Shown piece by piece: positions 4,661 through 44,143 of a DNA stretch of 55,474 nucleotides (the first letter of the stretch is position 1; every line of letters begins with the position of its first letter). Position numbers and translations under genes: made by a program. Under the pieces are notes generated by a model. That model was not told the origin of the DNA, did not search any database, and saw only the letters and a program-made list of their open reading frames with translations. Origin of the DNA: Verrucomicrobiota bacterium (GTDB lineage Bacteria > Verrucomicrobiota > Verrucomicrobiia > Limisphaerales > SXTU01); assembly GCA_016235545.1 (NCBI GenBank), contig JACRKB010000155.1, positions 1 through 55,474 on the forward strand, read 5' to 3'.

Positions 4661-5770
4661 TCAGCTCATCCTCATCGGCATCAGCACGTAGTGGAACGGA
4701 GTGTTGACCTTCACCGAGCCGGGGCTGAGTTCGTCCGACAGCTCGAGAAAGATTTCGTCTGTCTCCACCACCTTGAGCGGGTCCATCAGATAGCCGGGGT
4801 TGAATGCGATGCTGATGTCCTTGCCTTTGTAGTTGATGGCGATGGACTCGCGCGCCTCGCCCACGTCCGCCGTGTTGGCTGTGATGGTGAGGTTGTTTTT
4901 TGTGAAGGCGAGCTTCACCGAGTTGGACTTGTCGTTGGTCATCAGCTCGGCCCGGCGCAATGCGGCGTGGAACTCCTCGCGCATGAGCGTGATGCGTTCC
5001 TTGGCATCCTTGGGGATGACCTGCTGGTAATTTGGATAGTTGCCTTCGACGAGCTTGGAGATGAGCAGGACAGAGAAAGCTGTCTCGTCCTTGAGGCGGA
5101 ATGAAACCTGGTTGTCCGTGAAGCGAATCTCGGCTTCGCCCTTGGCTTGGAGCAGCCGGTTCAGTTCATTTACTGCCTTCGTCGGGACGATGATGTCTCC
5201 GGTCGCCGTCGAGCCGGCGGGCAAATCTTCTTCCGTCAGCGCCAGGCGTCGTCCGTCCGTGGCCACCATCACCAGCTTCTCGGGTGTGAACTTCATGAAC
5301 ACCCCGTTCAAAACATAGCGGGACTCGTCTGTGGAAATGGCGATGGCTGTCTTCTTTAGCATGGAACGGAGCTTCTCCTGCGGCAGGGTGACAGACCCGG
5401 TCTCCTTGAATTTTGGCAGCGGAGGGAACTCATCAGCGGAAAGCCCGTGCAGCTTGTAGTAGGAAGCGCCGGCGCTGAGCTTGGTGAAGTTCTTGTCGTC
5501 CGTTTCCAGCTCCAAATCGCCCACTGAAAGCTCGCGCACGATGCTGAAGAGCCGTTTCACTGGGATTGTGGAAGAGCCAGGTTCTTGAATCTGCGCCTCC
5601 ACCCCGCAAGCCACCGTCACGTCCAAGTCGGTGGCGGTCAGGAAAAGGCGGTTGTCTTCAGCCCGAACGTGAACGTTGGAGAGGATGGGCAACGTGGTGC
5701 GCGTGCTGACGACGTTCTGGACGGCTTGCAGACCGGCGATGAGCTGGTCTTTGGCGATGGTGAGTTTCAT
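4661..5770 (-). CDS. dnaN: DNA polymerase III beta subunit (sliding clamp)
   Basis: 369 residues, the usual length for the bacterial beta clamp, which forms a dimeric ring that tethers DNA polymerase III and other repair proteins to DNA. The protein shows the three repeated clamp folds: an N-terminal domain with LPILSNVHV and LTATDLDVTV, a middle domain with VLNGVFMKF and VATDGRRLAL, and a C-terminal domain ending in YVLMPMRMS, which matches the family's conserved C-terminal pocket (MPMR). The start is the ATG at 5770, which gives the expected MKLTIAKDQL opening. dnaN commonly follows dnaA, but no dnaA lies upstream here. Upstream is a 396-bp gap and a divergent peptidase gene; downstream on the same strand is the cNMP-binding gene. 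Confidence 0.97.
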   Translation of the reverse strand: MKLTIAKDQLIAGLQAVQNVVSTRTTLPILSNVHVRAEDNRLFLTATDLDVTVACGVEAQIQEPGSSTIPVKRLFSIVRELSVGDLELETDDKNFTKLSAGASYYKLHGLSADEFPPLPKFKETGSVTLPQEKLRSMLKKTAIAISTDESRYVLNGVFMKFTPEKLVMVATDGRRLALTEEDLPAGSTATGDIIVPTKAVNELNRLLQAKGEAEIRFTDNQVSFRLKDETAFSVLLISKLVEGNYPNYQQVIPKDAKERITLMREEFHAALRRAELMTNDKSNSVKLAFTKNNLTITANTADVGEARESIAINYKGKDISIAFNPGYLMDPLKVVETDEIFLELSDELSPGSVKVNTPFHYVLMPMRMS

Positions 5771-18067: not shown

Positions 18068-18096
18068 ACCCGAAACTCCAAACTCCAAACTCGAAA
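18068..18096. repeat. Heptamer tract AAACTCC
   Basis: The 7-bp unit AAACTCC is repeated (GAAACTCC, AAACTCC, AAACTCG, AAACTTT) in the gap between the ATPase and permease genes, ending just before the permease ATG at 18103. No inverted partner is seen. Confidence 0.7.
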
Positions 18097-18102
18097 CTTT
18101 CC

Positions 18103-20763: not shown

Positions 20764-20796
20764 ACAGCACGTCTAGCTCACGCATGAACGTCTCGG

Positions 20797-20890
20797 AGAA
20801 ACGGAGTGATGGAGAAATGGAGTGTTGGAGTGCTGACTCCGCTCCTTCCATTTCTCCACTACTCCACCACTCCATCACTCCGTTCCTCTC
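20797..20890. repeat. Hairpin repeat, family G (8-bp units)
   Basis: Left arm from 20801 (ACGGAGTGATGGAGAAATGG) and right arm to 20885 (CCACCACTCCATCACTCCGT) are complementary and built from ACTCCATC-type units. The element lies between the GldG-like and DUF4340 genes and ends just before the ATG at 20897. Confidence 0.8.
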
Positions 20891-22109: not shown

Positions 22110-23234
22110 CTACTTCCCCGTCTTCAGAAAGTGCTCGAAGAAGGCGACGAGCTGCGCGTTGGACTCGTCGTTGGGCGAGTGGTCTTTCCGGTTCGTCATC
22201 GCCACGCGGTTCTTCGCGCCGAGGAGGTCGTTCACAGCGATGGTGTGGTTCAGCGGTATCCACCGGCTCGGCGCATCCTCGCTGCCACCGCTGACGAGGA
22301 ACGGGCGGGGGGCCATCAGCGCGTGGACTTCGTGGAGGTCGCGGCCGGTCTCCATCATCACCTTGTAAGCGCCGGTGCGCGGGCTGTCGGCGCGGATGAG
22401 GCCGGGCTTGCGCGTGACCTGCGGGTCGCGGCCCAGATACCACGGCTCCCAGTAGTTCACGCTGCCACGAGGTTCGTCGAAGACTATTCCGGGGTCGCTC
22501 CATGCGGCGGCGGCGAATTTTTCGTAGAAGCACGAGGCGAACATGGCCCACTTGCCGCCGTAGCTGTGGCCAGCCACTCCGATGCGCTTGGAGTCAACTT
22601 GCGGGAGGTTCGCCAAGGCGTGCCAGCAGTTCGCGCCGATGTAGCCGAGGAAGGAGAGCGGTTGCCAGCCGTCGCGGCCCGGCTCGGGTGAGCGCGCATC
22701 GCCGCCGGGCGAGCCGATGCTGAGGGAGACAAATCCTTTGCGCGTGAGCTGCGCGGCGAAATCGCGGCCCGGATTCTTGCCGAGGCCGATGCTCGTCTCT
22801 GGCTCGTAGAAGGGCACGAGCACGGCGGGGAACGGGCCTTTGCCATCGGGGATGAGCAGCCACGCCTCGCCGGAGACGCCGGGGGCAAGCTCCACGCGGA
22901 CGCGATTCTGGGTGAAGTTGTCGCGCTTGCTCTGCGAGAGAAATTCCAGCTTTGGCTTCTCAAGCACGGGCGGCCACGCGCCCATGAGGCCGTGCCATTG
23001 CGCAAGAATCTCCGCACGGCGGCGCGGCCAGTCGGCGGCGGTCTTCACGTGCGAGCTGTCGTTGAAGAGCAGCGGGGAGCGGTAGTTGCCGAGCTGGCCG
23101 GCGAATTCGGCGGGCGGGGTGAAGAAGGGGGAGATGAGTTGCGTGGCCGAGTCCGCTGCTTGGAGCTGGGCCGCGCCGATGCAGACGAGGAAAGTGATTA
23201 GTGAGTAGTGATTAGTGAGGCGTCGTGGGTGCAT
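22110..23234 (-). CDS. Exported alpha/beta hydrolase (serine esterase/peptidase-like)
   Basis: 374 residues. After a signal-like N-terminus (MHPRRLTNHYSLITFLVCIG, then AAQLQAADS), residues 80-370 form an alpha/beta hydrolase: WLLIPDGKGPFPAVLVPFYE (first strands), an insertion with GSPGGDARSPEP, the nucleophile elbow GVAGHSYGGKWA near 230, and a late acid/His region (FLVSGGSEDAPS and NRKDHSPNDES). This layout resembles acetyl-xylan-esterase-like or dienelactone-type hydrolases, but the substrate is not evident. The ATG at 23234 is five bases after the lspA stop codon, so they are probably one unit. Part of the signal peptide (LTNHYSLIT) is coded by a tandem 7-bp repeat, see 23194-23220. Confidence 0.85.
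   Translation of the reverse strand: MHPRRLTNHYSLITFLVCIGAAQLQAADSATQLISPFFTPPAEFAGQLGNYRSPLLFNDSSHVKTAADWPRRRAEILAQWHGLMGAWPPVLEKPKLEFLSQSKRDNFTQNRVRVELAPGVSGEAWLLIPDGKGPFPAVLVPFYEPETSIGLGKNPGRDFAAQLTRKGFVSLSIGSPGGDARSPEPGRDGWQPLSFLGYIGANCWHALANLPQVDSKRIGVAGHSYGGKWAMFASCFYEKFAAAAWSDPGIVFDEPRGSVNYWEPWYLGRDPQVTRKPGLIRADSPRTGAYKVMMETGRDLHEVHALMAPRPFLVSGGSEDAPSRWIPLNHTIAVNDLLGAKNRVAMTNRKDHSPNDESNAQLVAFFEHFLKTGK
23194..23220. repeat. Heptamer tract TTAGTGA inside the hydrolase signal peptide
   Basis: Units TTAGTGA, GTAGTGA, TTAGTGA and variants follow each other in the first codons of the alpha/beta hydrolase gene and code for LTNHYSLIT on the minus strand. Confidence 0.75.
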
Positions 23235-23239
23235 GGATT

Positions 23240-23797
23240 TCACGTCTCGTTCGACAATGGGGCGGTGGATTTCTTGGCGACAGTTTCCGGCGGAGCAGCG
23301 GTCGCCGGCTCTGGCTGCTTTCCGTCCATTTGCCAAGAGAGCAGGAACATCAGGCCCACGCCGATGCAGATGCCGCTGTCGGCGATGTTGAAGGCCGGGA
23401 AGCCCGCCTCGTTGCCGCTGCGCGTCTGGACATGGAAGTAGATGAAGTCCACCACGTGCTTGTGAACGAGCCGGTCGATGATGTTGCCGACGATGCCGCC
23501 GAACATCAGGCCCAGCGCCCATTGCCCGAGCCGCTGCTCGATGCCGAAGTGGTGCCGCGTGAGGAAGAGCGCGAGCAGCGCCAGCATCGCGATGACGGTG
23601 AGCAGCTCGTTGTTCCCGTGAAACATGCTCCACGCCGCGCCGGTGTTGCCCCAGTGCACGAACTTGAAGAAGCCCTCGACGACGACCCGCTCCTGCGCGT
23701 AGCCGAGGAAGCGCAGCACGGCGAACTTCGTGAGCTGGTCCAGCACCAGCGTCACGGTGGCCACGAGCGCCATGCGGCGGTTGGGTGTCAAGGTCAT
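23240..23797 (-). CDS. lspA: Lipoprotein signal peptidase (signal peptidase II)
   Basis: 185 residues with four membrane helices. The enzyme cuts the signal peptide of prolipoproteins after the Cys is acylated. Conserved motifs: DQLTK at residues 20-24, NTGAAWSMF near 51-59, GNIIDRL near 104-110, and the catalytic aspartates in VVDF (D117) and FNIADSGI (D140). The C-terminal 35 residues are a Pro/Ala-rich tail beyond the usual end. Several probable lipoproteins in this window (livK, the amidohydrolase, the TIGR04073 protein) would be its substrates. The hydrolase gene follows within a few bases. Confidence 0.96.
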   Translation of the reverse strand: MTLTPNRRMALVATVTLVLDQLTKFAVLRFLGYAQERVVVEGFFKFVHWGNTGAAWSMFHGNNELLTVIAMLALLALFLTRHHFGIEQRLGQWALGLMFGGIVGNIIDRLVHKHVVDFIYFHVQTRSGNEAGFPAFNIADSGICIGVGLMFLLSWQMDGKQPEPATAAPPETVAKKSTAPLSNET

Positions 23798-23850
23798 GCG
23801 CCGCGTGGTTTAGCCGGTCGGCAGCGGGATGACAACTGTGGGCTGCCGAG

Positions 23851-23939
23851 GGAGGAGTCAGGAGTCAGGAGTCAGAAGCCAGCAGTCCGCGGTCGGCGGT
23901 CAGGGTCACACTTCGGAAGCAGCACACGACTTCTGACTC

Positions 23940-23961
<22 letters not shown>
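23851..23961. repeat. Hairpin repeat, family C (GTCAGGA heptamers), copy 1
   Basis: Left arm 23854-23880 is AGTCAGG repeated about three times, then AGTCAGAAGCC. Right arm 23929-23961 is GACTTCTGACTCCTAACTTC then TGACTTCTGGCTTC, its imperfect complement. The right arm contains the stop codon and last five codons (PEVRS) of the histidine kinase gene. The centre includes CGCGGTCGGCGGTCAGGG. Confidence 0.85.
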
Positions 23962-26294
<2,333 letters not shown>

Positions 26295-26522
26295 GCCATC
26301 TCCTTGGCCACCGTGCCGGGTGTGGCTGCGAAGTTTGACTCGGATTTGTCGTCGCGCGTCATGGGCCGGATGCTTTCCCTGATTTGTCCGTTGCGGGCGC
26401 TTTGGCCGGAACGGGCTGCTCCGTGGAACGGGGGCACTATGCCCATGCTGCTCCGACGGGAAAGCGAAAAGTCGGCTCTCACGGCTGGCCGGGCGGAGCA
26501 CCGCTTTTTCAACGCTGTGGCT

Positions 26523-26600
26523 GTTCCGCACCTGCTCGTAATCCTCATCCTGCTCCGACCCCTCGCGTTCCGATCATCGGAGCAAGCTTTGCCGGAACGA
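26523..26600. repeat. Family H repeat (copy 2, inverted) and outer arm of a nested element
   Basis: CCTGCTCGTAATCCTCATCC at 26530, then CCTCGCGTTCCGATCATCGG, is the reverse complement of the right half of copy 1 (9540-9597) with few changes. It ends in CCGGAACGAT, complemented by ATCGTTCCGG at about 26762 on the other side of element A1. Confidence 0.75.
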
Positions 26601-28910: not shown

Positions 28911-29081
28911 CTCCGAATGCCGAAGTTCAGCCGCGACAGCGCGCAGAAAACACAAAGGAGTCGAGTCGGGGATGACTTGAGCTGGGACTGTTTCCAACCT
29001 CCTCGCTCTCCTGCCAGAAACTTGGCTTTGCACTCTTTGCTCTCTTTCGCGGCCATTCCATTTCGGAGTCCGGGTTCAATG
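28911..29081. repeat. Hairpin element, family B (copy B1)
   Basis: Starts CTCCGAATGCCGAAGTTCAG and ends CATTTCGGAGTCCGGGTTCA. Inner arms are CAGAAAACACAAAGGAG and TTTGCACTCTTTGCTCTCTT. It aligns over its whole length with copy B5 at 43920-44088, including the loop words TTGAGCTGGGACTGTTTCCA and GAAACTTGGCTTTGC. Confidence 0.75.
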
Positions 29082-29200
29082 CAAAGGCTAGAAGGCGCAA
29101 AGTTGCGCGTTGAGGAAAACTGGGAAGGTCAGCAAACGCGAACGGCTTGGCCCAACTCTGCGTCCCTCTGCGTTCTTTGCACCTCCGCGTTAAGGGGAAC
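29078..29200. repeat. Hairpin element, family B (copy B1b)
   Basis: Left arm AATGCAAAGGCTAGAAGGCG then CAAAGTTGCGCG; right arm CAACTCTGCGTCCCTCTGCG then TTCTTTGCACCTCCGCGTT. It is directly continuous with B1 and followed by B2, giving three elements in a row. Confidence 0.65.
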
Positions 29201-29205
29201 ACAAG

Positions 29206-29390
29206 CTTCAACCTAGATTCCGCAGTTGAAACTCACGCAAAGGGCGCAAAGGGCGCAAAGGAAAAGAGTTTTGAAACCGCGACCTCTCACCCGCTGGGTG
29301 AAGGCTGCCGGTGCCTGCATTTGGAAAAAATGCCCTTCAGCGTTGCGTCCTTCGCGCCCTTTGCGTGAACCAACTGCGGCTTTCAGGCTC
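29206..29390. repeat. Hairpin element, family B (copy B2)
   Basis: The left arm contains the 9-bp unit GGCGCAAAG repeated (ACGCAAAGGGCGCAAAGGGC from 29235). The right arm is GCGTTGCGTCCTTCGCGCCC then TTTGCGTGAACCAACTGCGG. It ends at the stop codon of the twin-NBD ABC gene. Confidence 0.75.
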
Positions 29391-31017
29391 ATCGCGGCAA
29401 GTCCTCTGGCCGGTGCGTGACGACGATCAGGGCTGTGCCGGTGTTTCCCAAGCAGGCCAGGTGCGCTCGCATGAATGCGAGCGACTCCGCATCCAGCCCG
29501 TCCAGCGGCTCATCCAGCAGCAGCACTTGCGGGCGGTGCACGAGTGCGCGGGCCAGCAGCACGCGGCGGCGCTGGCCGTAGGAGAGGTGGAGGAATTGTT
29601 CCCGCGCAAGCCCGGACAGCGAAAGTTGCGCGAGCACCTCATCCACCCGCCGCCATTGCGCGCGCGTGACGTTGTCCAGCAGGCCGATGCTGGCAAACCA
29701 GCCGGAGGCCACGACTTCGCGCGCGGTCAGGGTGTCGCGGTAGGCGGTCTGCAAGTCGGGCCCCACGTAGCCGGCGCGGGCGCGGATTTCCCAGAGCGTG
29801 TGCCGGCGCGTCTCTCCGAAGCGGTGGATCACGCCGCCGAGCGCCGGGTGCAGCTCGCCCAGCAGGAGCTTGAGGAAGGTGCTTTTGCCGCAGCCGTTCG
29901 GGCCGGTGATGGCCCAGTGCTCGCCGGCGCGCATTTCCCAACTGAGGTTTTCCAGGACCGGCTTGCGGTCCAGATACACGCTGACGCCGCGCAGGCGGAA
30001 GAGGAAGGGAGCGGGCAAAGGTGAACTTCCAATGCCCTCCTTCGCTGGAAGTTGAGAGTTGAGAGTTGAGAGTTGAGATCGAACTCCGAAGTTGAGGCTG
30101 AAAGCCTCACACATGATAGCCCGGGGCAACGCCCCGGGTGGCGGCATTGAAGCATCGCCGCCCTGAAGGGGCGGAACATTTTGTGTCGCCCTTTCAGGGC
30201 TATGCCAATCGTGGCCGAGTAACCCGGGGCGTTGCCCCGGGCTGGTTTGTGATGCTCCTTCGGAGCGCCAGCTTCGGAGTTCGGGTCGTGGGCTCGCTCG
30301 TCGTTCCATTTTGCGGTCTCTGCGCCCTTTCGCGGCAATTCTTCCGTCCTCCAGCACCAGCCGCCTGCGCAGCGCGGGCAGCAGCTCATCCTCACGATGC
30401 GTTGCGAGAAGCACGCTGGTCCCGGCCTTGGTGGCGCGTTGCACGGCGGCGAGAAGCGTGGCGCGCATGGCGTCGTCCAGGCCGTCGGTGAATTCGTCCA
30501 GCAGCAGCAGGCGTGGTTTGCCCAGCAGAGCGCGGGCGATGAGCAGGCGGCGGAACTCGCCTTGTGAGAGCGTCTGCACGTCGCGCAGCAGCAGCGGGCC
30601 GAGGCGGAGTTCCTCCGCCAGTTTCCCCGCAGCCGCCTGCTGCTGCGCCGTGAGCCGCCGGTAGAGATAGTCCGTCTGGTGAAAGCCGGTGAGCAGCACA
30701 TCGCGGCCCGTGCGGAGCCATTCGAGGTTCAAATAACGCTCCTGCTGCTCCGGCGAGACAAAGGCGAGGTGTTCGCGCACGTCCACGGCACTGGTGGAGA
30801 GTTCGCCGTCCAAGCCGTAGGTGCGCCGCCCGCCGTCCACGGGATCGGGGTGCAGCTCGCCGGCGATGAGGCGCAGGAAAGTGCTCTTGCCCGAGCCGTT
30901 GGCGCCGAGCACGGCCCAGCTCTCGCCGGGCTGCCAGCGCCAGTGGACGCCGTGAAGGATGCGCCGCCCGGCGAGGGAGACGCTGACGTTGTCGAGATGC
31001 ACCAGGGGCGGAGGCAT
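29389..31017 (-). CDS. ABC ATPase with two nucleotide-binding domains (ModF-like), linker made of repeats
   Basis: 542 residues without membrane helices. NBD1 (about 5-240): Walker A GANGSGKST, signature LSQGEFRRLL, Walker B LLLLDEFTDGLDD. NBD2 (about 340-542): Walker A GPNGCGKST, signature LSYGQRRRVL, Walker B VLLLDEPLDGLDAE. The pair resembles ModF/PhrA-type soluble twin ATPases, whose role is unclear. The unusual part is residues 243-325: this linker is coded by a composite repeat (family F palindromes plus GTTGAGA heptamers) that stays in frame and gives peptide such as RSQLSTLNSQLPAKEG. Both NBDs keep their motifs, so the gene may still be functional. No permease gene is adjacent. Alternative view: two genes fused by the repeat. 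Confidence 0.85.
   Translation of the reverse strand: MPPPLVHLDNVSVSLAGRRILHGVHWRWQPGESWAVLGANGSGKSTFLRLIAGELHPDPVDGGRRTYGLDGELSTSAVDVREHLAFVSPEQQERYLNLEWLRTGRDVLLTGFHQTDYLYRRLTAQQQAAAGKLAEELRLGPLLLRDVQTLSQGEFRRLLIARALLGKPRLLLLDEFTDGLDDAMRATLLAAVQRATKAGTSVLLATHREDELLPALRRRLVLEDGRIAAKGRRDRKMERRASPRPELRSWRSEGASQTSPGQRPGLLGHDWHSPERATQNVPPLQGGDASMPPPGALPRAIMCEAFSLNFGVRSQLSTLNSQLPAKEGIGSSPLPAPFLFRLRGVSVYLDRKPVLENLSWEMRAGEHWAITGPNGCGKSTFLKLLLGELHPALGGVIHRFGETRRHTLWEIRARAGYVGPDLQTAYRDTLTAREVVASGWFASIGLLDNVTRAQWRRVDEVLAQLSLSGLAREQFLHLSYGQRRRVLLARALVHRPQVLLLDEPLDGLDAESLAFMRAHLACLGNTGTALIVVTHRPEDLPR
30048..30077. repeat. Heptamer tract GTTGAGA inside the ABC gene
   Basis: Four consecutive GTTGAGA units (GAAGTTGAGAGTTGAGAGTT onward) in the + strand, read in the coding strand as TCTCAAC, encode SQLSTLNSQL. 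The same unit forms the arms of the element at 13187-13655. Confidence 0.85.
30088..30290. repeat. Palindromic repeat, family F, inside the ABC gene
   Basis: Outer arms GAACTCCGAAG (30090) and CTTCGGAGTTCGGG (30274); middle arms GCCCGGGGCAACGCCCCGGG (30119) and CCCGGGGCGTTGCCCCGGGC (30222), each also a palindrome; inner arms GCCCTGAAGGGGCG and CGCCCTTTCAGGGC around 30160-30200. The whole element is read through in frame by the minus-strand ABC gene. Confidence 0.85.
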
Positions 31018-31028
31018 GGGGGGAAAGT

Positions 31029-31144
31029 AATCAGTGTTCAGTGTTCAGTAAGCAGTTTTCAGTCGGCGGCCAGAAGCCAGAAGCCAGAAGCCGGCACTTG
31101 GCTCCAGTGCTGACCGAACAGTGAACACTGCCTACTGAATACTT
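31029..31144. repeat. Hairpin repeat, family E (TTCAGTG and CCAGAAG heptamers)
   Basis: Left arm TCAGTGTTCAGTGTTCAGTA (from 31030); centre CCAGAAG repeated three times (31071-31093); right arm GAACAGTGAACACTGCCTAC then TGAATACTT. It fills the divergent gap between the twin-NBD ATPase and the MFS gene. Confidence 0.85.
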
Positions 31145-31180
31145 GTCTCCCCCGCCCTCCTGCCTTCCAATGCCCCTCCC

Positions 31181-32785: not shown

Positions 32786-32817
32786 TAGGAATCGTTCCGG
32801 ATTCGCCAACCATGCAA

Positions 32818-32980
32818 TTGAGCCACGGATGGAACACGGATTAAACACGGAACAGCAGGCGACTGTCTTGACGACGCCTGCCGTGTTGACCACCAGCGTT
32901 GGGTGTGCGCGTTCAACTCCTTGGGAGGATGCGTTTTCCTCGCCCCCATCCGTGTTTCATCTGTGTTCCATCCGTGGCTA
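32818..32980 (-). repeat. Dispersed hairpin element, family A (copy A2)
   Basis: 163 bp, inverted relative to A1 (26606-26757). Read on the minus strand it begins TAGCCACGGATGGAACACAG and runs with few differences through GATGAAACACGGATGGGGGC, GAACGCGCACACC, GTCAAGACAGT and CCTGCTGTTCCGTGTTT to the end GGCTCAA. Confidence 0.85.
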
Positions 32981-32985
32981 GGGAA

Positions 32986-33015
32986 TCGTTCCGGATCAGG
33001 ATTGCGAGCAGGAGC
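32986..33015. repeat. Family H fragment
   Basis: AATCGTTCCGGATCAGGATT followed by GCGAGCAGGAG matches the core of the family H repeats at 9570 and 26770. Confidence 0.65.
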
Positions 33016-33761: not shown

Positions 33762-34177
33762 CCACGACCTCCGACACACCTGCCAGCCGCGACGAAGCCG
33801 TGGCCACAATCTTCGCCAGCATGGTGATGCAACAGACGCAGATGACGCTCATGCTGCTGGGCCAGATGCCGCACCCCGAGACCGGCGAGGCCATCACGGA
33901 TTTGGAGGGCGCGAAGATGTTCATCGACCAGCTTGAGATGCTGGAGGTGAAGACCAGGGGAAACCTTGGCAAGGAAGAGGAGCAGCTCCTCAAGCAAAGC
34001 CTGGTCGGCACGCGCATGGCGTTCATCGCCTCCATCGAGCAGCAGGAGAAGGCGGCCAGTCCCGCCGCTCCGCCCGCCCCCGCGCCCGTCGCAGACGCAC
34101 CCGCTCCTATGGCGGCGAATGACGTGGCCGCTGCCGCTGACGACGACTCCCGCAAGAAGTTCTCGAAGAAGTATTGA
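33758..34177 (+). CDS. DUF1844 domain-containing protein
   Basis: 139 residues, soluble. Residues 10-85 match DUF1844: AVATIFASMVMQQTQMTLML, LGQMPHPETGEAITDLEGAK and MFIDQLEMLEVKTRGNL, with the pattern of a helical bundle and the conserved LxxAKxxIDxLxxLxxKTxGNLxxxE spacing. The C-terminal 50 residues are Ala/Pro-rich and end in KKFSKKY. The function of the family is unknown. The gene overlaps the LON-domain gene by four bases at its start, and its stop codon overlaps the TTG start of the MsbA-like gene, so three genes form one tight unit. Confidence 0.9.
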   Translation: MTTTSDTPASRDEAVATIFASMVMQQTQMTLMLLGQMPHPETGEAITDLEGAKMFIDQLEMLEVKTRGNLGKEEEQLLKQSLVGTRMAFIASIEQQEKAASPAAPPAPAPVADAPAPMAANDVAAAADDDSRKKFSKKY

Positions 34178-36072
34178 GGCGCGTTTCAGCCGCGCACCCT
34201 CTCTTGAGCACTCTCCTCCGCGCCCTGCAATTCTTCCGCCCGGAGCGAGCGCGCATCGCCGGCGTGCTCGCCCTCATGCTCGCTGGCATCGGGGCGAACC
34301 TGCTCAAGCCCTGGCCCATGGCCGTGCTCGTGGACAGCGTGCTCGGCTCCAAGGCGTTGCCCGCCGCGCTCCAATCGTGGTCCAACGACAAGGCCACTCT
34401 CATCGCGCTGCTCGCCGGCGCGACCGTCCTGCTGCATCTCTTGCAAGGCGGCCTCAACGCCACGCAAAACTTCCTCGCCATCAGCGTCGGCCTGCGCGGC
34501 CTGCGGCGCGTGCGCAACGAAGTCTTCGGCTGGCTCCAGCGCCTTTCGCTCCGCTTCCATCAGGGCCACAACACCGGCGATCTCATCCATCGCGCCGCAT
34601 GGGACACGTTTTCGTTTCAGACCCTCTTCCAGCAGGGGATGATGACCAGCGCCAGCGCGGCGCTGTCGTTCGGCCTGATGGTCATCGTGATGGCTCAACT
34701 GAACGGTCGGCTCACGCTCATCGCGCTCGCCACCGTGCCGTTGCTGCTGCTGGTCATCCGCACCTTCGGCAAACGCATGACCGAGCAGGGCGCGTCCGCG
34801 CAACTGGCCGACAGCCAGGTGACTTCGCTCGTGCAGCAAAACATCGCCTCGCTCCCGCTCGTGCAGAGCTACACACGCGAGGACCACGAGGCCCAGCGTT
34901 TCGGCACGCACACCGAGCAGGCGCAGGAGCGCCGCCTCGCGCAGCACGGCTGGGAAGTCGCCTACTGGTTCGCCATCACGGCGGTCTTCGGCGGCGGCAC
35001 GGCGGGCATCCTCTGGCTGGGTGCCAACGAGGTGTTGCGTGGCACCGCGACCCTCGGTGACCTGCTCATCTTCCTCACCTACCTCGGCCAGTTCTACGAG
35101 CCGCTCAACCAGCTCTCCCACGTCGGCGCGACCGTCTCCAACGCCAGCGTCGGAGCCAGGCGCGTCTTCGAAATCCTCGACACGCCAGAGGAAGTGAAGG
35201 ACGCGCCGGGGGCCAGGGAAGTCAGGAGCCAGGAGTCAGGAGCCAGGAATCAGAAAACAGGCGGCTCCCTCTCGAACTCGGCGCGCCCTCCGTCTCCTGA
35301 CTCCGGTCTCCTGACTTCTGCCTCCTCTCCGCTTTCCCTGCGGGGCGAACTCACCTTCTCCTCCGTCACCTTCCGCTACACCGACGACCGAGAAATCCTC
35401 CGCGACCTCAGCTTCACACTCGCGCCCGGCCAGTCTGCCGCCGTCATCGGTCCGAGCGGCGTGGGCAAAACCACCTTGCTCAACTTGGTGCCGCGATTCT
35501 TCGACCCCACCGGCGGCTCCATCCAGCTCGACGGCGCGGACCTGCGCTCACTCCGCGTCCGCGACCTGCGCGCCCATGTGGCCATTGTCCTGCAGGAGCC
35601 GATTCTTCTTCCCACCAGCATCGCGGAGAACATTGCCTACGGGCGCCCCGGTGCGACGCGCGACGAGATCGAGGCCGCTGCGAAGGCCGCCAACGCCCAC
35701 AACTACATCGAGCGGCTCCCGCAGAAATACGACACCCTCGTCGGCGACGGCGCGGCGCGCCTGAGCGTCGGTGAACGCCAGCGGCTCAACCTCGCCCGCG
35801 CCTTCCTCAAGGACGCGCCCATCCTCCTTCTCGATGAGCCCACCAGCGCGCTCGACGCGGAGAGCGAGGCGCTTGTCGTCGAGAGCCTCAAGCGATTGAT
35901 GCGCGGGCGCACCACCCTCATCGTCGCGCACCGCCTCTCCACCATCCGCAATCTGGACAAGATTCTCGTGCTGGAAGACGGGCGCGTGACTGAGTCCGGC
36001 ACGCACGGGGAACTGCTGGCCAGCGGCGGCTACTACGCCCGCGTGGTGAGTGGGCAGATCACCTTGGATTGA
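34174..36072 (+). CDS. MsbA-like ABC exporter (fused permease and ATPase) with repeat-coded linker
   Basis: 632 residues. A six-helix exporter domain (about 15-330; SLRFHQGHNTGDLIHRAAWD is the usual coupling segment) is followed by an NBD (about 388-625) with Walker A GPSGVGKTT, Q loop VLQEPILLP, signature LSVGERQRLNLARAF, Walker B ILLLDEPTSALD and switch His IVAHRLSTI. Such half-transporters work as dimers and flip lipids, peptides or drugs. Residues 347-385 between the domains are coded by a GTCAGGA/TCTCCTG hairpin repeat that remains in frame (VRSQESGARNQKTG and PPSPDSGLLTSASS). The TTG at 34174 overlaps the previous stop; TTG 34204 is an alternative start. Confidence 0.92.
   Translation: MRRVSAAHPLLSTLLRALQFFRPERARIAGVLALMLAGIGANLLKPWPMAVLVDSVLGSKALPAALQSWSNDKATLIALLAGATVLLHLLQGGLNATQNFLAISVGLRGLRRVRNEVFGWLQRLSLRFHQGHNTGDLIHRAAWDTFSFQTLFQQGMMTSASAALSFGLMVIVMAQLNGRLTLIALATVPLLLLVIRTFGKRMTEQGASAQLADSQVTSLVQQNIASLPLVQSYTREDHEAQRFGTHTEQAQERRLAQHGWEVAYWFAITAVFGGGTAGILWLGANEVLRGTATLGDLLIFLTYLGQFYEPLNQLSHVGATVSNASVGARRVFEILDTPEEVKDAPGAREVRSQESGARNQKTGGSLSNSARPPSPDSGLLTSASSPLSLRGELTFSSVTFRYTDDREILRDLSFTLAPGQSAAVIGPSGVGKTTLLNLVPRFFDPTGGSIQLDGADLRSLRVRDLRAHVAIVLQEPILLPTSIAENIAYGRPGATRDEIEAAAKAANAHNYIERLPQKYDTLVGDGAARLSVGERQRLNLARAFLKDAPILLLDEPTSALDAESEALVVESLKRLMRGRTTLIVAHRLSTIRNLDKILVLEDGRVTESGTHGELLASGGYYARVVSGQITLD
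35211..35327. repeat. Hairpin repeat, family C (copy 2), inside the MsbA-like gene
   Basis: Left arm from 35216 (GGGAAGTCAGGAGCCAGGAG then TCAGGAGCCAGGAATCAG) and right arm from 35291 (CGTCTCCTGACTCCGGTCTC then CTGACTTCTGCCTCC) are imperfect complements of 7-bp units. It is the same family as 23851-23961 but inserted in a coding region. Confidence 0.85.
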
Positions 36073-36120: not shown

Positions 36121-36276
36121 TGCAATGGCCTCAAAGAACGCAAGAAGACGCAAAGAAGACAGGGGTTTTCATCGCAATGATCGGAACTGTTTCATTGCGC
36201 GCAGTCTTGGCCGCAATCTCCTCTCTTTGCGTCTCTTTGCGTTTTTTGCGGCCGTTCCATTTCTGAGTTCGGGTTG
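36121..36276. repeat. Hairpin element, family B (copy B4)
   Basis: Left arm CTCAAAGAACGCAAGAAGAC then GCAAAGAAGAC; right arm CTCTCTTTGCGTCTCTTTGC then GTTTTTTGCGGCC; end TTCTGAGTTCGGGTTGAAGC, like B1. Confidence 0.75.
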
Positions 36277-36381: not shown

Positions 36382-36406
36382 CTTGAACTTGGAACTTGGA
36401 ACTTCG
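36382..36406. repeat. Heptamer tract AACTTGG
   Basis: Units AACTTGG, AACTTGG, AACTTCG in succession, upstream of the squalene-synthase-like gene. Confidence 0.75.
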
Positions 36407-37580: not shown

Positions 37581-40500
37581 ATGCAGCTTTTCAAATTGAC
37601 CGTGCTCGCCATCCTGCTTGCCGGCAGCCTCTGCCTCGCCCCCATATTGGCCCGCGCGGCTGACTCCAAGGCCAAGGCCGCCGCTCCCGCTGACAAGGAA
37701 GCCCAGGCCCAGGCCGCCGCCCGCGCCAAGGCAGAAGCTCTCGCCAAAGCCGAGCAGGAGCGCAAGGCCAAGGCCGATGCAGAGGCCGCCCAGCGCACGA
37801 AAGTTGAGGCCGACCGCAAAGCCCAAGCCGACGCGAAGGCCAAGGCCGACGCCGCCAAGCAGGCGCAGACCGCCGCCGACCGCAAGCTGAAGGAACAGGC
37901 CGACGCTGCCGCACAGGCAAAAACCGACGCCGAGAAAAATGCCAGGGCCGCAGCCGAGGCCAGACGCCTCGCCGACTTGAAGTCCGCCAAGCAATCCGAG
38001 GAGAACAAGCGCGCCGCTGACCTCGCCGCCCGCAAAGCCGACCCCGCAAGCTGGGCCACCCGCGCCAGGTCCGACGCCCAAGCCGCCGCTGCTGACGCCG
38101 CGCGAGCCGCCGCCGAAGCCTCGGCCGCGCAGACCGCCGCGAACAATACCCAAGCCGCCGCGCGAGCCGCCCGCACCGCAGAAACACAAGCCGCCGAAGC
38201 GCTCGACAACGCCAAGTTCACCGTCGCCCGCGCAGAAAGCGCACTGAAGCACGCGCAGGCCGCCACCAAGTCCGCTTCAGCCGCCAAGTCGAAATCCGAT
38301 TCCGAAACCAAGGCCAAGTCCGAAGCCAACGCGCGCCAGCAACTCCAAGCCGCGGACGCCATCGCCAAATCCAGAGCCGCCGCAGAAGCGAAAGCCAAAT
38401 CCACGGCAGACGCCGCCGCCGCCGCGCAAGGCGAGGCCAACCGCCTCGCCCAAGCTGAAGCCCGCGCAAAAGCCGAGGCCCCCGCCGCCGCCGCCCGCGC
38501 TGCCCAAGCCGCCAAGACAGCCAAGGCCGCCAACATTTCCACCACCGAACTCGAAGCAGCCGCAGCCACCGCGAACAAAACCGCCGCAGACGCCATCCGC
38601 GCCAAGGAAGGCTACGCCCTCGCCGTCAAGAACAAGCCCGAGCGCGAAGCCCAAGCCGCACTCCAAGCCGCGACCATTTACGCCGAGACCGCCGCCCGCA
38701 CCGCCCGAGCCGCACAAGACCGCCTCGATGCCGCCAAGTCCGCCATCAAGGCAAAGGCCGACGACGCCAGGTCCGCGCAGTCCGCCGCCGAGGCCGCAAA
38801 CAAGGCAGTCACTGAATCTGCAAGCCAGGTCGCCGCCGCCCAACGCGCCGCGACCACCGCTGCGAAAGCCGCCACCGAGGCCCGCACTGCCGCTGATGCC
38901 GAGGCTGCAAAAGCCGCGAAGGCATCGTCCGTCAAGCCCGCCGCTTCCCCCGCAGCCGCAGCCACCACCGCCCTCGCTGCTGCGCAAGCCGACGAACAAG
39001 CCAAAGCCCGCGCCGAGCATCAAGCCCGCGCCGCTCTCACCTCCGCAGAGGCCGCCCTGCAAAAAGCCAAGGCCGCCCGTGCCGCCGCCGAGCAAGCCGT
39101 CACATCCACTTCCACAGCCGCAAAGCAGAAAACCGAAGTCGCCCAGCTCGCCAAGTCTGAAGCCAGCAAGAAAGCCAGCGTCGAGGCCGAGGCCGTCCGC
39201 GCCGCCCAAGCCGCTGCGGACAACGCAAAGGCCGCTGCCGCCACCGCCGCCAAGGCCAGAGCCGAGAAGGAGGCGCAGGCCAAAGCCGCGATGGAAAAGA
39301 AGGCAAAGGCCGACGCTGATGCTGCCAAAGCCAAAGCCACCGCCGATGCGAAAGCCAAGGCTGAGAGTGACCGCCTCGCCAAGCTGGCAGCCGACCAGAA
39401 AGTTGCCTCCGAAGCCAAGGCGAAGCTGGAAGCGGAAAAGAAGATGAAAGCCGAGGCGCAGGCCAAGGCTGAAGCCGACAAGAAGGCAAAGGCCGCGATG
39501 GCAGCCAAGGCGGATGCAGACGCAGAAGCGGCCAAGAGGGCCAAGGCGATGGAAGATGCCTCACGCGCCAAGGCCGCCAAATCTGCCGAAGAGGCCGCCA
39601 AGAAAGCCGCCGCAGAAGCCAAAGCCAAGATGGCTCCCCAGCCCAAGCCGGCAGCGACTTCCGCCAACGCAAGCGCGCAGGCCAAGGCCGCCGCCAAGGA
39701 ACTTGAAGCCGAGCGCAAGGCCAAGCTCGACGCGGAAATGAAAGCCGCAGCCGAAGCCAAGGCGAGAATGGAGACTGAGAAGAAAGCAAAGCTTGAAGCT
39801 GAACGCCTCGCCAAGCTCGACGCCGAGAAGAAATCTGCGGAGGCGAAAGCAAAGCTGGACGCCGACAAGAAGGCAAAAGCCGACGCTGACAAGCAGGCCG
39901 CCGCCAAAGCCAAGATGACAGCACAGCCCAAGCCCACCTCGGCTCCTGCGGCTCCGGACGCGCAAGCCAAGGCCGCAGCCGCAGCTGCCAAGGTGGCAGC
40001 CGACAAAAAGCTTGAAGCCGAGCGCATGGCCCGCCTCGACGCCGAGAAGAAAGCGGCCGCTGATGCGAAGGCCGTGAAGGCCGACGCGGAACGCAAAGCC
40101 AAGCTCGATCTCGAAGCCAAGGCCAAGGCGAAGATTGACTTGGACAAGAAAGCCGCCGCCGACCTCAAGGCGAAGATCCAGGCCGAGAAGCAGGCTGCCG
40201 CCGCTGCCAAGATAAAGATGGATTCCGACAAGCAGGCCCAAGCGAAGGCCGAAGCAGACCGCAAAGCCGCCGAGGCCAAGGCGAAGATTGATTTGGACAA
40301 GAAAGCCGCGGCCGATCTCAAGGCGAAGATCGAAGCCGACAAGCAGGCCGCAGCCGCCGCCAAGTTGAAGATGGATTCCGACCGGCAGGCCAAGGCCGAG
40401 GCCGACCGTCTTGCCAAGGTTGAGGCCAGCCTAAAAGCCGAGGCCGACCGCAAAGCCCGCGAAGCCGCCGAGGCTCAGGCAAAAACCGAGTTGAAACTCC

Positions 40501-41402
40501 GGCAGGCCGCCGAGAAGCAGGCCGCAGCCGACGCCGAGATCAAACGCAAGGCGCAGGAAGCCGAAGTCGAGGCCCGCGCGAAGCTGGCCGCCGAAAATGC
40601 GCGCCAGGCCAAGGCCGCTGCCAAGGCCCGGATGGACTTGGCCGCCAAGGCGGAGATCGAAGCCGCCCGGCAGGCCGAGGCGCAGGCCCGGGCGAAAGTT
40701 GAGATGGAGCGCAAGGCCGCCGCTGAGACGGAGCGCCTCGCAAAGTCGAAACTGGAAGAGGAGCGCAAGTTGCGTGAGGCGCAGGAAGCCGTTCAACGCA
40801 AGGCCCAGGAGATGGAGATTGCCCGTGTCCAAGCCGAGGCCAAGGCCAAGCTCGTGGCTGACAAGCAGGCCAAGGAGCAGGCCGAGGCCGCGCTCAAAGC
40901 CTCCATGAAGGCACAGGAGGACGCCGTGCGCTTCGAGCGCGAGAGCGCCGCCCTCCGGATCAAGATGGAGGCCGAGGCGAAGCTCAAGGCTGACCGCGAC
41001 GCCAAGCGCATGGTGGAAGAAACCCTCGCCGCAGCAAAGAAGGCCGACGCCATGACCAAGGCCGCCGCCGCAGAAGCCGCCAAGGCCGAACTGAAGAAGA
41101 AGGCGGAGACAGACGCCCGCTTGAAGGAGATGGATCGCAAACGCGCCGAGGAAGAGCGCAAGGCCGCGAGCATGAAGAAGCCCGCCGCCCCAATCGCAGC
41201 TCCGGCCCCCGGTGCGGCCCCCACCGCAACCAAGGCACCCACGCCCGCAGCACCGACGGTGACCGCAAAGCCCGACGTGAAGAAAGGCCCTGTGAAGCCC
41301 AAGGATCAGCGCCTCAAGGAGCTGCTGCAACAATACCTCACGGACAAGATCACCCCGCGCGAGTATCACCAGCAGCGCGCCAAGATCCTCGCCGAGCCTT
41401 GA
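37581..41402 (+). CDS. Very long Ala/Lys/Glu-rich exported helical protein with C-terminal SHOCT-like motif
   Basis: 1273 residues. The signal peptide MQLFKLTVLAILLAGSLCLA (cleavage near LARAAD) is followed by about 1150 residues almost entirely of Ala, Lys, Glu, Asp, Arg and Gln, as in the helical stalk of TolA but much longer; no Trp is seen there. Units of the type AKADA, AEAKAK and KLEAERLAK recur. A 51-codon tandem duplication (AKIDLDKKAAADLKAKI) is seen at 40128-40253 and 40281-40397, and QPKP spacers occur near 39640 and 39925. After a Pro/Ala/Thr linker the last 30 residues (RLKELLQQYLTDKITPREYH, then QQRAKILAEP) resemble a SHOCT-like helical hairpin. A periplasm-spanning single alpha helix or coiled coil is likely. 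A terminator follows. Confidence 0.88.
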   Translation: MQLFKLTVLAILLAGSLCLAPILARAADSKAKAAAPADKEAQAQAAARAKAEALAKAEQERKAKADAEAAQRTKVEADRKAQADAKAKADAAKQAQTAADRKLKEQADAAAQAKTDAEKNARAAAEARRLADLKSAKQSEENKRAADLAARKADPASWATRARSDAQAAAADAARAAAEASAAQTAANNTQAAARAARTAETQAAEALDNAKFTVARAESALKHAQAATKSASAAKSKSDSETKAKSEANARQQLQAADAIAKSRAAAEAKAKSTADAAAAAQGEANRLAQAEARAKAEAPAAAARAAQAAKTAKAANISTTELEAAAATANKTAADAIRAKEGYALAVKNKPEREAQAALQAATIYAETAARTARAAQDRLDAAKSAIKAKADDARSAQSAAEAANKAVTESASQVAAAQRAATTAAKAATEARTAADAEAAKAAKASSVKPAASPAAAATTALAAAQADEQAKARAEHQARAALTSAEAALQKAKAARAAAEQAVTSTSTAAKQKTEVAQLAKSEASKKASVEAEAVRAAQAAADNAKAAAATAAKARAEKEAQAKAAMEKKAKADADAAKAKATADAKAKAESDRLAKLAADQKVASEAKAKLEAEKKMKAEAQAKAEADKKAKAAMAAKADADAEAAKRAKAMEDASRAKAAKSAEEAAKKAAAEAKAKMAPQPKPAATSANASAQAKAAAKELEAERKAKLDAEMKAAAEAKARMETEKKAKLEAERLAKLDAEKKSAEAKAKLDADKKAKADADKQAAAKAKMTAQPKPTSAPAAPDAQAKAAAAAAKVAADKKLEAERMARLDAEKKAAADAKAVKADAERKAKLDLEAKAKAKIDLDKKAAADLKAKIQAEKQAAAAAKIKMDSDKQAQAKAEADRKAAEAKAKIDLDKKAAADLKAKIEADKQAAAAAKLKMDSDRQAKAEADRLAKVEASLKAEADRKAREAAEAQAKTELKLRQAAEKQAAADAEIKRKAQEAEVEARAKLAAENARQAKAAAKARMDLAAKAEIEAARQAEAQARAKVEMERKAAAETERLAKSKLEEERKLREAQEAVQRKAQEMEIARVQAEAKAKLVADKQAKEQAEAALKASMKAQEDAVRFERESAALRIKMEAEAKLKADRDAKRMVEETLAAAKKADAMTKAAAAEAAKAELKKKAETDARLKEMDRKRAEEERKAASMKKPAAPIAAPAPGAAPTATKAPTPAAPTVTAKPDVKKGPVKPKDQRLKELLQQYLTDKITPREYHQQRAKILAEP
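40128..40397 (+). repeat. Internal 153-bp tandem duplication in the helical protein gene
   Basis: GCGAAGATTGACTTGGACAA at 40128 and GCGAAGATTGATTTGGACAA at 40281 begin two copies 153 bp (51 codons) apart; most differences keep the same residue type. Confidence 0.8.
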
Positions 41403-44109: not shown

Positions 44110-44143
44110 ACTTCGGAGTTCGGGATCACCTTTCACCTTTCAA
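44110..44143. repeat. Element end motif and heptamer tract CACCTTT
   Basis: CTTCGGAGTTCGGG (the end motif of families B and F) is followed by CACCTTT, CACCTTT, CAACTCA next to the ffh stop codon. Confidence 0.6.

Follow-up and report, generated by a model that had tools for sequence, protein, structure and literature searches.

Handed hairpins with heptameric tandem arms and their exchange of repeat unit at orthologous sites in a genus of Verrucomicrobiota

The hairpin beside lspA and the repeats of the window

The window analysed here is one whole contig, 55,474 nucleotides long, from the draft assembly (5.0 Mb, 311 contigs) of a Verrucomicrobiota bacterium. Among the few named genomes compared with it, the nearest is a Verrucomicrobiales MAG, at 61% identity over a protein of the squalene/phytoene-synthase family. 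The hairpin at 23847-23968 is placed between two genes of the minus strand, lspA (signal peptidase II, 23240-23797) and a gene for a hybrid sensor kinase (HAMP-HisKA-HATPase-2x response regulator, 23940-26531) whose 3' end lies inside the hairpin. The 5' arm (23847-23887, plus strand) consists of three AGGAGTC units that pass into degenerate units of the AGCCAGC/AGTCCGC type. It is followed by a loop of 40 nt (23888-23927) and by the 3' arm (23928-23968, plus strand), which is the complement of the 5' arm, reads GACTTCTGACTCCTAACTTCTGACTTCTGGCTTC... and contains the stop codon of the kinase together with its terminal residues (KPEVRS*). A preliminary description of this DNA had reported GTCAGGA units on the left and their complement on the right, and the hairpin is real: its arms are 41 nt each, 76% complementary and 40 nt apart, and an inner pairing of 26 nt reaches 88%. 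Folded as DNA, it has a z-score of -2.45. A hybrid sensor kinase beside lspA was not found in any of the genus relatives examined. No loop sequence common to this hairpin and the seven other AGTCAGG hairpins of the genome was seen among the eight compared.

Nine clear sites with 7-bp tandem units are present in the window; the count of exact period-7 tracts is six, against 0.0 in shuffles. The eight heptamers listed in the preliminary description were all recovered as tracts (8/8) by Tandem Repeats Finder, at positions 30050, 23853, 31031, 31069, 36385, 18073, 23193 and 44126. The further statement that several of them also occur as the inverse complement nearby holds for GTCAGGA and TTCAGTG, whereas the other six of the eight have no clear inverted partner. 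A third hairpin with a clear inverted partner, at 35223/35294 with the unit CAGGAGC, was absent from that list.

The second hairpin has a mostly intergenic 5' arm of AGTGTTC/AGTAATC units (31007-31047, plus strand) and a 3' arm at 31122-31164 (plus strand). Its loop holds a GCCAGAA array (31069-31092, plus strand) that has no inverted partner of its own. The third hairpin is inside the gene of an ABC exporter (34174-36072), in the linker between the membrane and ATPase domains, with a 5' arm of CAGGAGY units (35202-35264, plus strand) and a 3' arm at 35287-35347 (plus strand). Another linker, in a gene for a two-domain ABC ATPase (29389-31017), carries a heptamer array at 30050-30078 (minus strand), in which CTCAACT is repeated four times on the coding strand and read as SQLSTLNSQ. 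The same linker contains a palindromic insert of about 200 bp (30080-30283), missing from the relatives G009 and G010, in which the RNA family Acido-Lenti-1 has two near-matches, at 31.5 and 23.2 bits against a gathering score of 37.

The arrays of AAACTCC (18073-18098, plus strand) and GAACTTG (36385-36404, plus strand) are single, the first without an inverted partner and the second without a clear one. An AGTGATT array (23193-23218, minus strand) lies near the 5' end of a gene and encodes part of a signal-peptide-like protein start; unlike the other heptamer sites, similar sequence is retained there in G010, G006 and G005. The CACCTTT tract at 44126 has 2.4 copies only, within an open reading frame, and looks incidental.

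Hairpins of other unit lengths also occur in the window. The one at 20796-20888 has 8-bp units, GGAGTGAT on the left and the complement on the right, with the hand of the heptamer hairpins. The one at 32797-33000 has 11-bp units of the ACACGGAT / ATCCGTGT type, and those at 29026-29260 and 36121-36259 are built of CGCAAAG / CTTTGCG units of 8-10 bp. A different kind of repeat is found at 37581-41402, where an open frame of 1273 codons has many Ala/Lys/Glu repeats, among them a tandem repeat of 153 bp; its family matches are weak and adhesin-like, and it is probably of low complexity.

Period, inverted pairing and handedness

The genomic counts were made in 885 kb of the assembly with simple tract and hairpin detectors of our own, and the gene calls are approximate. 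The period of 7 bp stands out from its neighbours, and the idea survives the refuting test that the preliminary description had set for it: 38 strong tracts have this period, and 2, 3, 7 and 0 have periods of 6, 8, 9 and 10 bp. With all tracts included, the count is 75 for period 7 and 21, 19, 27 and 5 for the other four. In shuffled sequence the 75 period-7 tracts fell to 0.5. The tracts are not assembly artefacts, because the orthologous sites of independent relatives bear arrays that are identical or related. By the rough gene calls, 39 of 68 tracts are within the approximately 13% of the DNA called non-coding, and sites within genes are common.

An inverted partner within 150 bp accompanies 35-41% of the period-7 tracts, compared with 3-8% when the flanks are taken from other tracts. 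The same 150-bp test gave no excess of direct partners. Other periods are also able to form hairpins, with an inverted partner at 9/16 period-8 tracts and 2/3 period-11 tracts. In loci of cyanobacteria and other phyla, period 7 was likewise dominant after the seed arrays had been masked. Period 7 is dominant among the tandem-arm hairpins, not exclusive.

Since either strand of a hairpin reads in the same sense, a preferred sense of the inverted pair is meaningful. In the period-7 hairpins AGT is placed in the 5' arm and ACT in the 3' arm, by 44:3 in all and by 20:2 when each unit is counted once. To this total the genome itself contributes 12:0, its genus relatives 7:0, four further genomes of the class 4:0 and the named foreign loci 21:3, the foreign set being seeded with AGTCAGG and its copies possibly of common ancestry; the handedness counts are not all independent events. 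The aperiodic hairpins of the same DNA are divided evenly (24:24). The 5' arms of the period-7 hairpins are also G-rich (573 G to 251 C), and those of the aperiodic hairpins weakly so (1739 to 1483).

Viral contigs were searched for exact pairs of each of four units, in either sense, which gave 4:0, 5:1, 4:1 and 14:1, the last for AGTTGAG, whose expected hand had been fixed ahead of the scan. With identical cores collapsed the ratio is 22:3. All three viral exceptions are plain palindromes without tandem units, and the true arrays are 12:0. Within the phylum the exact AGTCAGG pattern gave few matches, with a hand of 2 to 0. An opposite hand is apparent in one or more hairpins of the relatives G002 and G006. 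In Xanthomonas, the GGGAATC pairs are described as 'convergent' (Rehm et al. 2015, PMC4692102), and this seems to be the same handedness rule.

Unit core and unit exchange at orthologous sites

The preliminary description had considered the units unrelated and the layout alone common to them. This was rejected, since the units have a common AGT/TCA core and their alignment by rotation beats that of permuted units. An unbiased test of all 64 trinucleotides placed AGT (ACT on the other strand) first at a spacing of 7, with 30 AGT-N4 x4 sites against 0.01 expected, AGT being rare in the GC-rich DNA of this genome. Many of the heptamer units contain AGT or TCA. The distinct units, aligned by rotation and strand, share a consensus centred on TC(A/C) and score 145, compared with 126±4 for permuted units. 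A test of variable positions against a fixed core within arrays gave a phase concentration of z about 3 in the genus and about 11 in the seeded foreign set, which is moderate support and does not pick out AGT as an invariant triplet. The sequence itself is widespread as well: an exact 25-mer of the arm at 23847-23887 occurs in at least 116 stretches from at least 10 phyla. Among the matches listed are Cyanobacteria, Acidobacteria, Nitrospirae, Verrucomicrobia, Lentisphaerae, Deltaproteobacteria, Clostridia, Armatimonadetes, Phycisphaerae and Bacteroidetes. The distribution of AGTCAGG is patchy, because a 15-mer from the same arm is present in 16 of 286 genomes of the bacterium's own class.

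Its further point, that the layout stays the same as the units differ, was borne out at orthologous sites, where the architecture outlives the unit. The comparison covers about a dozen of these sites in incomplete draft genomes. The linker of the ABC exporter is free of repeats and 96 nt long in the relatives G001, G003 and G004, and that of this genome (G000) exceeds these three by 102 nt. An in-frame insert of AGTCAGG/AGTCAGA units is present in G000, G005 and G010, the same place is occupied by CGTGTTG/CAACACG hairpins in G002 and G006, and the linker of G007 carries a degenerate hairpin. Every insert has a length divisible by 3.

In the linker of the ABC ATPase the units are CTCAACT in G000, G009 and G010, AGTCCAA in both arms in G005, of the CAACGTT types in G001, G003 and G006, and GTTGGAA in G002. 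The hairpin of G004 at this linker belongs to another family: the CGCAAAG family is alone there, and it encloses the heptamer hairpin in G009 and G010. The spacer at 31007-31164 has AGCGGTC in both arms in G010 and AGTNNTC types in G000, G006 and G009. A PSD1/DUF1549-like cytochrome gene of G004 and G005 (L249 10454-12933 and L258 5766-8191) carries several heptamer sites at matching positions, with equal units at some and changed units at others; in the homologues of G000 the sites are absent or different. At one intergenic site a hairpin is present in G002 and G006, G000 and G004 are empty, and G005 has a hairpin of another type.

At each of the five sites scored, arms from one species fit one another better on average than arms from different species do, and the effect is clearest where the unit class has changed. 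The support is modest at single sites, where the permutations that reach the observed sum number 4/24, 4/24, 530/5040, 1/2 and 1/2, and the five sites were delimited by hand. The in-frame length difference between G000 and G010 is 21 bp, that is three units, in the one clear case, the others being too diverged to count. The arms are not always in step: at the ABC ATPase linker of G000, G009 and G010 one arm is freshly homogenised and the other old, and in the PSD1-like gene of G004 the two arms have different units. Both arms change unit, the loops differ and lengths change by whole units; one process is therefore favoured over the spread of a single element, as had been suggested.

Origin of the hairpins and relation to known repeats

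The tracts belong with the hairpin-forming heptameric tandem repeats of the STRR/heptameric SSR class, given the excess of 7-bp units, the mostly intergenic position and, in one case, a change of length in multiples of 7. Our preferred reading, to which we give a chance just short of even, is that repeats of this class are renewed by slippage and by template switching between the arms. In this model the heptamer hairpins would occupy tolerant spacers and protein linkers. A variant unit may spread inside one arm by replication slippage in steps of 7 bp, and an occasional template switch between the arms, as in quasipalindrome correction, would rewrite the opposite arm to match. The hairpin would persist while its unit is replaced. 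Within genes, the survivors would be the in-frame forms without stop codons, and a host function would not be required. Slippage and template switching agree with the intermediates in which one arm is fresh and the other old. The homogenisation of arms through template switching is established (PMC8604942, PMC7202029), and slippage that favours 7-mers is a proposal of Mrazek, as it is relayed in PMC4679880 and PMC4692102. The handedness would further imply that one strand of the array preferentially folds back or is copied.

Several points weigh against slippage and template switching. Neither process is handed by itself, yet the hand is 44:3. They leave the recurrence of AGTCAGG in many phyla and the choice of 7 unaccounted for. 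Hairpins of other families are nested at the sites, and some of the apparent turnover may be replacement by independent insertion. The modest single-site support for co-variation of the arms and the apparently opposite hand in G002/G006 count against it as well.

A serious rival, which we nevertheless consider rather unlikely, is that mobile palindromes of small size (MITE/REP/RPE-like), their arms made of heptamers, enter permissive spots independently, so that differing units would be separate insertions. The filled and empty sites are clean, and G005 has another type of hairpin at the site filled in G002 and G006. Hairpins of other families are nested in these linkers, with CGCAAAG on the outside and the heptamers within, so permissive sites also take independent insertions. 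A possible direct repeat of 9 bp, GCCGGATGC, seen by eye, flanks the exporter hairpin of G006 (L243, near 5182-5214) and is single in the empty G004 site, which is consistent with a target-site duplication; no such repeat was seen by eye at the linkers of G000, G005, G007 and G010. The loops of same-unit hairpins have no common sequence, and hence no element body is recognised. A single arm can, moreover, be rewritten alone. RAYT/Y1 transposase genes number 0-3 per genome, and none was found in the repeat-bearing drafts G001, G004 and G009.

Among the specific families of this kind, REP/RAYT was rejected. It does not fit the occurrence of PF01797, with three in G000 and none found in G001, G004 and G009, which bear repeats and are incomplete drafts, nor a common REP/RAYT element sequence, as the arms have only the unit and core in common and the loops are not shared. 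A MITE is disfavoured, as the copies (eight AGTCAGG hairpins) are without sequence common across the element. The Rickettsia palindromic elements are palindromes that also occur in frame within genes. These elements and the REP/RAYT hairpins resemble the present hairpins in being palindromes, but they have a common whole-element sequence or are associated with a transposase, and neither was found for the heptamer hairpins.

A further alternative, which we consider unlikely, is a widespread and unrecognised bacterial activity by which 7-nt repeats with an AGT-type core are written on a single strand and always in one sense (5' AGT, 3' ACT), for instance at 3' ends or fold-backs, so that handed hairpins are made across many phyla and the unit is rewritten in place. 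If so, the long-standing STRR puzzle would come down to what one enzyme, or one replication intermediate, leaves behind.

Retention for a function in RNA or DNA appears decidedly unlikely, whether as a terminator, in RNA stability, as a protein-binding array or in post-transcriptional regulation of the kind proposed for TAACTGA. A hand would be expected if one strand of the structure were recognised, the concentration of 39/68 tracts in the approximately 13% of non-coding DNA points the same way, and binding of Csp/Csr/S1 has been proposed (PMC4679880). Gene ends are, however, not favoured. The hairpins are not bidirectional terminators, because convergent gene pairs enclose 13% of the spacer DNA but only 1 of the 37, and Rho-independent terminators were rejected on the same count. 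The unit differs between sister species, many sites of relatives are empty and many lie in protein linkers. No Rfam family was above threshold: the search gave sub-threshold matches only, of which those of mir-H20 on both AGTCAGG hairpins are a chance resemblance.

The hand is predicted directly by telomere-like addition at 3' ends, in which an enzyme would add 7-nt repeats at both 3' ends of a break and the joined product would read (AGTNNNN)n-loop-(NNNNACT)n. As when telomeres fuse, each of the two arms would have the same strand at its 3' end, and handedness follows (44:3, and 14:1 in viral contigs), as do independent arm lengths and unique loops. This origin is very unlikely: no enzyme is known, so many units within a single genome would call for many templates, and stepwise variants and whole-unit indels are explicable without it. 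Ordinary slippage-born microsatellites, whose inverted partners and hand would be incidental, are highly improbable even though, in many bacteria, no long unit is more common than the heptamer (Mrazek 2007, cited through PMC4679880), given that inverted and not direct partners are in large excess and that the hand is a property of the periodic hairpins alone.

Heptameric repeats (STRR, long SSRs), the prevalence of heptamers over other long units, and inverted heptamer pairs are already known (PMC4679880, PMC4692102). The STRR/heptameric SSRs of Calothrix and Nostoc and the long SSRs of Mrazek agree with the present tracts in their 7-bp tandem units, mainly intergenic position and several units per genome, and an identical AGTCAGG array is present in cyanobacteria. 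The present repeats differ in belonging to a GC-rich genus and lying also in genes, and their inverted pairing, hand and same-site unit exchange were measured. The heptamers GGGAATC of Xanthomonas and GGGGA(C/T)T of Nostoc (PMC4692102) form 70-75 inverted pairs 'in convergent orientation', flank the same genes and vary in length and sequence between species. There, one unit family per genome was read as a former of G-quadruplexes, whereas here dozens of units occur in one genome, most of them without GGG runs, and the hand extends to AGT units.

The closest precedent for unit exchange is the P6b element of the Nostoc tRNA-Leu intron, a heptamer hairpin with degenerate arms and two unit classes at one orthologous site (PMC3488679). 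It is one locus in a self-splicing intron, while here many unlinked loci, coding and non-coding, are concerned. The TAACTGA repeats of Beggiatoaceae, Cyanobacteria and Bacteroidetes (PMC4679880) are also tandem heptamers with a patchy spread across phyla, and their complement can be read as AGTTATC, which fits the AGT core; nearly all of them are, however, direct repeats upstream of start codons, with one indirect repeat in the main genome studied. In quasipalindrome correction (PMC7202029, PMC8604942) imperfect hairpin arms are rewritten to match, also in genes, but with no tie to 7-bp tandem units or handed sequence. In the open-licence literature searched, no general handedness rule across units or phyla was found, nor an exchange of units within the same site for many loci in a single genus, nor frequent in-frame heptamer hairpins in linkers.

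Heptamer repeats have been known for decades without an accepted origin, and the hand and the same-site exchange narrow the question: a mechanism that accounts for them has to be specific for one strand and capable of rewriting or replacing hairpins where they stand. The heptamer repeats are also a source of protein sequence, as seen in the new linkers and in one part of a signal-peptide-like stretch.
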